Origin: Chlorobiaceae bacterium
GTDB lineage: Bacteria > Bacteroidota > Chlorobiia > Chlorobiales > Chlorobiaceae
NCBI GenBank assembly: GCA_013334865.1
Contig: JAAXWS010000015.1
Location: 1 to 59,099, forward strand
Length of the DNA stretch: 59,099 nt
Direction of reading: 5' to 3'
The position numbers were made by a program, and so were the translations under genes. Below, piece by piece: positions 42,764 to 46,808 of this stretch; the stretch's first letter is position 1, and every line of letters starts with the position of its first letter. Under the pieces are notes generated by a model. It was given only the letters and a program-made list of their open reading frames with translations, searched no databases and was not told the origin of the DNA.

Positions 42764-43843
42764 ATGATTTACAAGGTCATTTCGAAGCCCGAGTTCATAT
42801 CGTTCATCGATGCGATCGTCAAGGCGAACAACGCCTACGGGCCGCGCCAGGTCGATACCGGCCGCAGGGGCGAGCCGATCTACCAGTTCATGCCGGTAAC
42901 GTCGGCGGGCGAGATCGCCTTCGACTACACGGCCACCCACTCATCGGCCAAGCACCTCTTCCTGCCTTTCCGCGACGAACTCTCCAAATTCAGCTTCACC
43001 GACGGCAACTGGGAGCAGGAGGTGCGGTACGACGCTCCGCCCATCGTGCTCATCGGCCTCAGGCCCTGCGACATCAACGCCGTCAACATCCTCGACGACG
43101 TGATGCTCCGCGGCCCCTATCCGTCGCCCTACTACCTCGCGCGCCGCCGGAACACCTTCATCATCGGCATGGACCACCTGCCGCTGGCCGACTGCTTCTG
43201 CAAGTCGATGAACCGGCACACCGTCAACCACGGCTTCAACCTCTTCTGTTCCGACATCGGCGACCGGTACTACCTGTCGATCAACTCCGCGAACGCCTTC
43301 GGCTTCCTCAAGGAGTTCCGGCTCGAGGAGCCCTCCTACGAGGACAACTGCAACCTGATCGAACGGCGCAAGATGATCAAGCACAGCTTCACGACCAATA
43401 TCGAGGTGACCGGCCTACCGGTCTTCCTCGACATCGAGTTCGACTCCCCGATCTGGCAGAAATGGGGCGACAAGTGCCTCAGCTGCGGCTCCTGCGCCAT
43501 GGTCTGCCCCACCTGCTACTGCTACAGCGTCGAGGAGCGGTTCGACATCGACCTCAAGGGCTCGACCCGGCAGAACCACCTCTACTCGTGCAACCTGGTC
43601 GATTTCGCCCAGGTTGCCGGCGGGCACAACTTCAGGCCAAAGAACGGCGACCGGCTCAAGTACCGCTACTACCACCACTACCGCGGTTTCGCGGCCAACG
43701 ACAACCAGCAGATCTGCGTCGGCTGCAACCGGTGCGGACGCGCCTGCCTGGCCGGCATCAATCCGAAAGACGTCATCAACGACCTCAGACTGGAGCGTGA
43801 ATCATGCATGACCTGCGTTTCAACATCCCCGGACAGGACCTGA
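42764..43843 (+). CDS. hydB: [NiFe] sulfhydrogenase beta subunit (iron-sulfur)
   Basis: A 359-aa subunit of a cytosolic group-3b-type [NiFe] hydrogenase, homologous to HydB of Pyrococcus sulfhydrogenase. It carries [12 protein letters not shown] and two ferredoxin-like Cys sets, [16 protein letters not shown] and [14 protein letters not shown], for 4Fe-4S clusters that pass electrons between the NiFe module and the flavin subunit. The ATG at 42764 has an excellent GGAGGTG site. It opens the hydB-hydG-hydD-hydA operon and overlaps hydG by 40 nt, a long overlap that suggests tight coupling. Confidence 0.92.
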
Positions 43844-44721
43844 ACCTCGAACCCTTCGCGCTCAGGGCCCCGGACTTCCAGAAAAAGTGCGAGGTCATGA
43901 TCACCGACCGGGGCTACAAGTGCCGGATCACCAACATCGTGCCGCTCTCCGGCCAGGAGCGGCTGTTCCTGCTCCGCATCGTCGACCCGCTCGAACGGGA
44001 GCTCTTCAACTTCAGGCCCGGCCAGTTCCTGATGCTCGAAGTGCCGGGTTACGGCGAGGCGCCGATCTCGATTTCGAGCTCCACGAGCAACCACGAGTTC
44101 ATCGAGCTGTGCATCCGCAGGGCCGGACATGTGACTTCGGCCCTCTTCGAAGCCAAGCAGGGCGCCATCGTCTCCATCAGGGGGCCTTTCGGGACGGCAT
44201 TCCCGATGGAGCAGATGAAAGGGCGGAACGTGCTCATGGTGGCCGGAGGACTCGGCATCGCCCCGATGCGCGCCCCGCTCTTCTGGATCGGCAACCACCG
44301 CGACTGGTACCGCGACGTGCGGCTCCTCTACGGCGCGAAAGAGCCGTCGCAACTGCTCTTCAGCTACCAGTTCGAGGAGTGGCAGAAGGTGAGCAACGTC
44401 AAGCTGCACACCATCGTCGAGAATCCGGACGGATCCTGGCGTGGCAGGAGCGGGATGATCACCACCCTGTTCGACGAATTCACCTTCGACCCCGAAGAGA
44501 CCTGGGCCATCGTCTGCGGCCCGCCGGCCATGTTCAAGTTCGTCTGCAACTACCTGGACCTGAAGGGCATCCCGATGAACCGCATGTTCGTGTCGCTGGA
44601 GCGCCGGATGCACTGCGGCATGGGAAAGTGCTGCCGCTGCATGGTCGGCTCCACCTTCACCTGCCTCGACGGCCCGGTGTTCGACTACTGGTCGGTCATG
44701 AACCTCAAGGAAGCCATCTAG
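43804..44721 (+). CDS. hydG: [NiFe] sulfhydrogenase gamma subunit (flavin, NAD(P)-linked)
   Basis: A 305-aa ferredoxin reductase-like subunit that links the hydrogenase to NAD(P)H, as HydG in Pyrococcus. FAD-binding part with [10 protein letters not shown] and the [10 protein letters not shown] segment, NAD(P)-binding part with [11 protein letters not shown] and the IVCGPPAMF block, and a C-terminal 2Fe-2S set [10 protein letters not shown]...C. It starts inside hydB and precedes hydD by 9 nt. (This is the hydrogenase HydG, not the [FeFe]-maturase of the same name.). Confidence 0.92.
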
Positions 44722-44730
44722 GGAGCCGCC

Positions 44731-45495
44731 ATGAACCACCTCGGATTCGAACTGCAACCCCTGAAGATCGCCTCGTTCGACTTCACCTGCTGCGAAGGGT
44801 GCCAGCTGCAGCTCGCCAACAGGGAGTCCACCCTTCCGGAGTTCCTCGCGCTGGTCGACATCCGCAACTTCAGGGAGATCTCCTCCGAACGGCACGACGA
44901 TTACGACATCGCCCTGGTCGAGGGGAGCATCACGCGAAGCGACGAGATCGAACGGCTCAAGACGATCCGCGCCCGGGCGAAGATGCTCGTCGCCTTCGGC
45001 ACCTGCGCCTGCTTCGGCGGGGTGAACAGCCTCAAGAACCGCATGCCGCAGGAGGCGGTCATCCGTGAAGTCTACGACGGCAAGGCGATCGAGACGATGC
45101 CGTCGATGAGGATCGGCGACATCGTCGAGGTGGACTACGGCATTCCGGGATGCCCCGTCTCGAAGGAGGAGGTCGAACGGATCGTGGTGAGCCTCGTCAG
45201 CCGCTCGCCCGTCACCCTTCCGACCTATCCCGTCTGCGTCGAGTGCAAGCAGCGGCTCAACACCTGCCTGTTCGACCTCGGCGAAATCTGCCTCGGCCCC
45301 GTCACGCGTGCCGGTTGCGACGCGGTCTGCCCCACCGGAAATACCGCCTGCCTCGGCTGCCGGGGGCCGGCCGAAGAGATCAACTTCCCCGCCTTCGCGC
45401 AGCTCGTCAGGGACAAGGAGCTCAGTATGGCGGACATGAGGGAAAAGCTCGCATTCTACAACGGTTTCGGAGACTACCTTGAAGAGGAAACTTGA
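44731..45495 (+). CDS. hydD: [NiFe] sulfhydrogenase delta (small) subunit
   Basis: A 254-aa small subunit carrying the proximal electron-transfer clusters next to the NiFe site. Cysteine signatures: [43 protein letters not shown] and [24 protein letters not shown]. There is no twin-arginine signal, so the enzyme stays in the cytoplasm, which fits group 3b. A GGGAG site lies before ATG 44731. Its end overlaps hydA by 17 nt. Confidence 0.93.
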
Positions 45496-46759
45496 TTTCG
45501 ACATCGACCTGCACCACCTCCCGAGGGTCGAAGGGCACGGCAACATCCGCATCTCCGTCAGGGATGGGCGCCTTGCCGAAGCTACCTGGGCGGTGGTCGA
45601 GACCCCGCGCTTCTTCGAGGCGATCGTCAAGGGCATGAGCGCCGAACGGGTGCCGTTCCTCACCTCGAGGATCTGCGGCATCTGCTCGATCAGCCACTCC
45701 CTGGCCAGCATCCGCGCGCTCGAACGAGCCATGGAGATCACGCCGCCGGAAACCGCGCTCACCATCCGCCTGCTCGCCATGCACGGCGAGACCCTGCAGA
45801 GCCACGCCCTGCACCTCTTCTTCCTGGCCGCCCCCGACTTCCTCGATGCGCCCAGCGCCCTGCCGATCATGCAATCGCACCCGGAGATCGTTCGTGCCGG
45901 CCTGCAGCTCAAGGAGCTCGGCAACGAAATCAGCACCGTGACCACCGGACGCTGCACCCATCCGGTCAGCCTCGTGCTCGGGGGCGTCAGCAAGGCCCCG
46001 TCAAGGGAGCTGCTGCTCCGGCTGAAAACGATGATCGCCGAACGGCTGCCGGCCCTCGAAAGGACAACGGAGTTCTTCAGCACGCTCACGATCCCGCAGT
46101 TCGTCCGTGAAACCGAATTCATCTCGCTGCGCAACGGCTCGGCCTACCCCTCGATCGGCGGCGACCTGGTTTCGACCGACGGCGTCGTCCGGGACGAGGA
46201 GGACTACCTGCGGATGACCAACGAATACCTCGTGGCGTTCTCCACCTCGAAATTCACGAAGGTCACCCGCCAGTCGTCTGCTGCCGGGGCGCTGGCCCGC
46301 TTCAACAACAACTTCGGTCTCCTGCACCCCCGGGCCAGAGCCGCCGCCGCCGCCTTCGGGCTGGAGCCTGTCTGCCACAACCCCTTCATGAACAACGTCG
46401 CCCAGCTCGTCGAGTGCCACCACATCATGGAGGACGCCGCAATGCTCGTCGACCGCCTGCTCGACGCCGACCTGCTCGACATCCGGACGGCCTTCAAGCC
46501 GAAGGCGGGCTCGGCCACCGGCGCCGTCGAAGCCCCGAGAGGCATCCTCTACCACCACCTGGAGACCGACGACGAAGGCAAGGTGGTCAAGGCCGACTGC
46601 ATCATCCCGACCACGCAGAACAACGCCAACATCCACTACGACCTCCACGCCCTCGCCGAACAGGCGCTGGCCGAAGGCCGGAACGAAGCCGAAACAGAGA
46701 AGCTCTGCGTCATACTGGTAAGATCCTACGACCCCTGCATCTCCTGCTCGGTGCACTGA
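45479..46759 (+). CDS. hydA: [NiFe] sulfhydrogenase alpha (large, catalytic) subunit
   Basis: A 426-aa large subunit with the active-site motifs L1 RICGIC (Arg64, Cys66, Cys69) and L2 DPCISCSVH (Asp418, Cys420, Cys423, His426). The four cysteines bind Ni and Fe. Unusually, the stop codon follows His426 directly. Large subunits normally have a C-terminal peptide after that His that is cut off during maturation, so this protein seems to be made in the already-processed form. The start is TTG 45479, supported by GGAG 6 nt upstream and overlap with hydD. The TGA stop is part of a perfect 23-bp hairpin. Confidence 0.92.
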
Positions 46760-46808
46760 ACATGAAACAGCAAGGGCGAGATGGGCGCCCTTGCTGTTTC
46801 ATGTTCAG
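46756..46808. terminator. Perfect 23-bp hairpin, bidirectional terminator
   Basis: 46756-46778 and 46786-46808 are exact reverse complements around a 7-nt loop (AGATGGG). The left arm contains the hydA stop codon (46757-46759), and the right arm ends 10 nt before the stop of the leftward methyltransferase gene (46819). Palindromic arms without a long T-run fit a shared terminator for convergent genes. Confidence 0.75.

Follow-up and report, generated by a model that had tools for sequence, protein, structure and literature searches.

The window, a stretch of 59,099 nucleotides from a Chlorobiaceae bacterium, carries the four-gene operon hydB-hydG-hydD-hydA at positions 42764-46759. The four products are best matched by four sulfhydrogenase subunit families (Table 1). 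The reading frame of hydA, the final gene, is unbroken over its whole length, begins with a TTG codon with GGAG just 5' of it, and ends in DPCISCSVH followed at once by TGA. Its product matches PF00374 (E-value 4e-37) and has both CxxC motifs, L1 (RxCGxCxxxH) and L2 (DPCxxCxxH). The in-frame codons past the TGA are ACA and TGA, so that readthrough would add one residue only. A perfect inverted repeat starts on the stop codon, with arms at 46756-46778 and 46786-46808, a loop of 7 nt, a folding energy of -45 kcal/mol and a z-score of about -10. As it lacks a T run, the hairpin gave no match in a terminator scan and is non-canonical as an intrinsic terminator. It probably ends transcription in both directions, between genes that converge. 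The gene that converges on hydA across this hairpin is a methyltransferase gene.

Table 1. Features of the hyd operon and of its 3' end, with positions in the window.
Feature	Position	Strand	Description	Basis
hydB	42764..43843	+	Iron-sulfur subunit (beta), group 3b-type hydrogenase	Top NCBIfam matches sulfhyd_ShyB and sulfhyd_HydB; Pfam Fer4_22
hydG	43804..44721	+	FAD/NAD(P)-binding subunit (gamma)	sulfhyd_ShyC/HydG, PF00175, PF00970, PF10418
hydD	44731..45495	+	Hydrogenase small subunit (delta)	sulfhyd_HydD/ShyD, PF01058
hydA	45479..46759	+	[NiFe] hydrogenase large subunit (alpha), 426 aa, no encoded C-terminal extension	PF00374; top NCBIfam match sulfhyd_ShyA; L1 motif and L2 motif DPCISCSVH intact
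L2 C-terminal nickel-ligand motif of HydA	46730..46756	+	Last codon is the His that terminates mature large subunits	Sequence
hydA stop codon TGA	46757..46759	+	Immediately 3' of the terminal His codon	
Perfect inverted repeat, 23 bp	46756..46808	n/a	Starts on the hydA stop codon	

We fetched and read 70 HydA genes from two families of the order to which the source organism belongs. All 70 end exactly at ...SVH, with TGA (49), TAG (13) or TAA (8) as the stop codon. The L2 motif DPCISCSVH is identical in 69 of them and reads DPCVSCSVH in the remaining one. The 30 bases 3' of the stop are unconserved, with a near-random entropy of 1.4-2.0 bits per column. The three different stop codons and the lack of conservation behind them exclude chance, sequencing error, readthrough and recoding of TGA. 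The perfect hairpin that begins on the stop likewise argues against an artefact, and there is next to no chance that a tail is missing through sequencing error or restored by readthrough. The earlier note had read the terminus as DPCISCSVH followed by TGA and the gene as coding for the processed form. Both statements hold, since the stop is real and neither HydA nor its close relatives have any extension after the L2 His.

The same four-subunit hydB-G-D-A operon is found for the group 3b sulfhydrogenases of Pyrococcus furiosus (SHI, HydBGDA) and Thermococcus kodakarensis (HyhL), with which HydA aligns over its full length and shares an identical C-terminal motif. The archaeal chains carry four residues beyond the His (428 aa against 424) and need a peptidase, whereas HydA has no tail. 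The resemblance to a tailed Pyrococcus sulfhydrogenase that the earlier note had pointed out is confirmed: the deposited chain has 428 aa, and the His aligned with that of HydA is residue 424. HydA scores far below the NCBIfam equivalog cut-offs for the archaeal SH I and SH II alpha subunits (249 against 700 and 231 against 880 bits), cut-offs that fit archaeal orthologues and not all of group 3b. On a tree built without archaeal 3b sequences and without formal HydDB classification, it falls with the large subunits of group 3b and is separate from 3c/3d-like enzymes. In other families of the same phylum-level group, all 20 group 3b-type large subunits that were read end in a tail of 5-19 residues, typically FLKLxxxR. 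The source genome itself encodes a group 1 large subunit with a 15-residue tail, VYDMNGNEITKVTIV.

We searched the whole collection with a DNA pattern for YDPC[..]SCxxH-stop. At least 116 stretches matched; the 80 listed are large-subunit C-termini, both cysteine motifs being readable in most, and they cannot be used for frequencies. The taxa among the matches listed are Nitrospirota, Thermodesulfobacteriota, Myxococcota, Acidobacteriota, Planctomycetota, Spirochaetota, Coriobacteriia, Patescibacteria and Archaeoglobales. Because such a pattern selects for tail-lessness, the sampling was repeated by homology alone. All 24 sequences with at least 50% identity to HydA proved tail-less (21 Nitrospirota, 2 Myxococcota, 1 Thermodesulfobacteriota). 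Homologues below 50% identity, sampled without selection for the trait, are nearly all tailed. Thus the Nitrospirota at 44-46% identity have tails of 7-9 residues, such as FLDVKFVNR, in all nine sequences read, and the Myxococcota at or below 44% identity are tailed in 23 of 23 readable sequences. The Thermodesulfobacteriota sample is mostly tailed, and its tail-less members are L250, from the HydA clade, and L247, located elsewhere on the tree. A trait confined to the Chlorobi was rejected by the pattern scan and by the homology searches in two phyla, Nitrospirota and Myxococcota. While the encoding of HydA in its processed form stands, this state is peculiar neither to the gene nor to the Chlorobi, and belongs to a multi-phylum clade, with several origins in group 3-type enzymes.

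Tail columns were left out of the alignment for a large-subunit tree. On this tree the tail-less relatives of HydA come together in a single clade (ultrafast bootstrap 100, SH-aLRT 99) that is nested within tailed group 3b enzymes with support of 100/98 and 99/97. Given this nesting, the tail would have been lost once, in the ancestor of the clade, before the enzyme spread to Chlorobiales, Nitrospirota, Thermodesulfobacteriota, Myxococcota, Acidobacteriota and others. The other tail-less lineages (Coriobacteriia, Patescibacteria, Archaeoglobales) are placed elsewhere on the tree and probably represent separate losses in further group 3-type lineages. A constraint grouping all tail-less rows was rejected by the AU test (p-AU 2e-39), which rules out that every tail-less group 3-type subunit goes back to one loss, and joining the HydA clade with the Coriobacteriia group alone was rejected as well (p-AU 0.0016). 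The minimum number of tail changes under parsimony is 5 with 63 rows and 8 with 134, counts that depend on sampling because most tail-less rows from outside the Chlorobiales came from the DNA-pattern scan. The Coriobacteriia sequences form a tail-less clade of their own, apart from that of HydA and ending in YDPCLSC[SA]VH (L110, L115, L119, L145, L149, L161, L162, L177, L182, L184).

A search for peptidase genes, which the earlier note had suggested, found a single HycI homologue (C20:209125-209496) in the source genome, which encodes two [NiFe] large subunits. No HycI-family peptidase lies by hydA in this genome, the only such gene being on another contig. Of 86 Chlorobiaceae genomes, 77 encode HycI and 76 the group 1 large subunit, which never occurs there without HycI. 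These genomes contain 78 HycI genes, of which 72 follow the group 1 large subunit on the same strand at a distance of 807-1220 bp and none adjoins hydA. Because HycI tracks the group 1 subunit in both occurrence and position, the sole HycI of the source genome is, judged by its position in relatives, the peptidase of the group 1 Hup hydrogenase, and hydA is by the same reading without a peptidase of its own. In the source genome the HycI gene is not on the hupSLC contig (C20:209125-209496, C34:18269-19822; L005, L043). It sits behind a large repetitive surface-protein-like frame, and in most relatives it is about 1 kb downstream of hupL; a rearrangement or a misassembly may account for this.

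Across the wider sample, a HycI homologue is found directly behind the large subunit in 32 of 60 tailed loci against 0 of 61 tail-less loci. The profile used was made from Chlorobiales sequences and is escaped by divergent peptidases, and the 28 tailed loci without a match are not evidence of absence. In plasmid-borne tailed 3b operons, the protease gene overlaps the end of the large-subunit gene.

A HycI that serves another hydrogenase is present in most genomes with a tail-less HydA. In G429 no such gene was found: on this chromosome-level record of 5,571,058 bases, the clade member L168 is the only PF00374 protein, the four-gene order is kept (frames of 347, 302, 254 and 422 aa), HypC and HypD are present, and no match to PF01750 (HycI) is found, although a homologue too divergent for this profile could exist. 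HypC and HypD, the two Hyp genes covered by the search, are also present in the source genome. Patescibacteria genomes, which are small and possibly incomplete assemblies, gave no HycI match in those tested. Three Chlorobiaceae genomes (G214, G358, G354) encode HydA with neither a group 1 subunit nor HycI. They were set aside as natural knock-outs, as one assembly gap could remove both neighbouring genes, and G429 was relied on instead because these three assemblies are fragmentary.

These distributions bear on the proposal that tail-less HydA still needs the single HycI-family peptidase (HupD), acting as an assembly chaperone or checkpoint and not as a protease. A maturation protease of Salmonella was reported to bind a large subunit in the absence of the peptide (PMC7654741), and most Chlorobiaceae with hydA also have one HycI. 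Against this, HycI follows the group 1 subunit and not HydA, tail-less enzymes occur without HycI in G429 and in Patescibacteria, and the three incomplete Chlorobiaceae assemblies point weakly the same way. A chaperone role of this kind is thus very improbable.

Trimming by a dedicated protease is the usual last maturation step in textbooks. In the HydA clade of group 3b-type enzymes, the gene for the large subunit specifies the mature chain, and this chain very probably matures by the ordinary Hyp machinery, without HycI-type cleavage. We infer that nickel insertion into HydA is controlled without the trimming step. Apo-HydA would receive Fe(CN)2CO and Ni from HypC/D/E/F and HypA/B, with no tail to hold its last four residues open. 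The active site would then close upon metal insertion or upon binding of the small subunit HydD, and maturation would resemble that of the H2-sensing (2b) and CooH/Ech-type enzymes.

In the 3b enzyme of T. kodakarensis, the strand formed by the tail sits in the position of an N-terminal strand and so leaves the N-terminus free to hold HypA at the active site; once nickel is inserted, cleavage brings the fold back (PMC7294309, PMC12134894). The tails of the sister enzymes (IMDVRFV, YLKVKFI), short and alternating in hydrophobicity, suit the tail strand of this model. A lengthened N-terminus that compensates for the missing tail was rejected, the distance from the start to RVEGHG being similar in the tail-less clade and in its tailed sisters. 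As the N-terminal arm is of ordinary length, no compensating feature was identified.

The tail-less state does not guarantee function, because deletion of the tail inactivated Hyd-2 of E. coli and the soluble hydrogenase of Ralstonia (PMC7294309). HydA could be non-functional or altered, for instance a structural component, or a sulfur reductase that lacks the NiFe centre, and engineered removal of the tail did yield a nickel-free assembled enzyme in two systems (PMC7294309). Such a nickel-free HydA is nevertheless very improbable: both cysteine motifs are kept over deep divergence, with DPCISCSVH nearly invariant in the order, and G429 retains HypC and HypD even though the tail-less HydA is its only [NiFe] large subunit. 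When the membrane-bound hydrogenase subunit HoxG of Ralstonia was artificially made without its tail, the NiFe cofactor was nonetheless incorporated and the enzyme was active (PMC7294309). That pre-cleaved form gave a lower enzyme yield, whereas the state of HydA is natural and ancient.

The proposed maturation of HydA without cleavage has natural precedents in other hydrogenase groups. Naturally tail-less large subunits are described in groups 2b, 2d, 4c and 4e (PMC7294309, PMC12134894) and 4g (PMC7294309), and group 3 is unmentioned in both papers. The regulatory HoxC of Ralstonia (group 2b) is tail-less like HydA and is matured by Hyp proteins (PMC7294309), but it belongs to another subgroup and has other partners; HydBGDA appears to have the electron-transfer subunits of an NAD(P)-linked catalytic enzyme and no sensory context. 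The enzymes of groups 4c, 4e and 4g (CooH, Ech and uncharacterised) are also naturally tail-less (PMC7294309, PMC12134894), but belong to another group, and HydBGDA has no membrane subunits. A literature search that covered few subscription papers turned up no account of group 3b enzymes without a tail. The peptidase-free mode of maturation is already known, and what appears to be unreported is its occurrence across a wide group 3b clade that is presumably catalytic. More generally, it is likely that peptidase-free maturation is normal for a large multi-phylum part of the group 3-type hydrogenases, with several independent origins, and that peptidase genes are lost where no other tailed hydrogenase is left.

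If so, the C-terminal peptide would be an optional checkpoint and not a core step of [NiFe] enzyme assembly. The best structural model for the role of the tail comes from a tailed group 3b enzyme, HyhL of T. kodakarensis bound to HypA. That role is disputed, as removal of the tail abolishes activity in only some hydrogenases (PMC7294309). A natural pair of tailed and tail-less sisters within one subgroup would permit tail swaps between close homologues, with no need for a crippled enzyme. Group 3b enzymes are also wanted for regenerating NADPH, and production in other hosts should be easier with a version that does without a matched peptidase.

Several minor observations were made. Twelve genomes (G396, G406, G410, G412, G413, G415, G419, G423, G428, G433, G436, G439), from Patescibacteria and similar small genomes, have a tail-less large subunit and a HypC match with no HypD match at E 0.001; HypD may be divergent, unassembled or absent. 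One patescibacterial tail-less large subunit (L144:1113-7036) has no recognisable small subunit or peptidase alongside, and its neighbours include a short HypA-like frame that falls below the cut-off. Second, broken copies of hydA, with a frame change and an internal TGA, occur in two Chlorobiaceae genomes (G305:C11:85559-86808, G076:C23:144028-144324). Finally, the residue preceding the last His is Val throughout the sequences of the tail-less HydA clade that were read and mostly Thr or Ala in tailed enzymes, which is a possible compensatory change.
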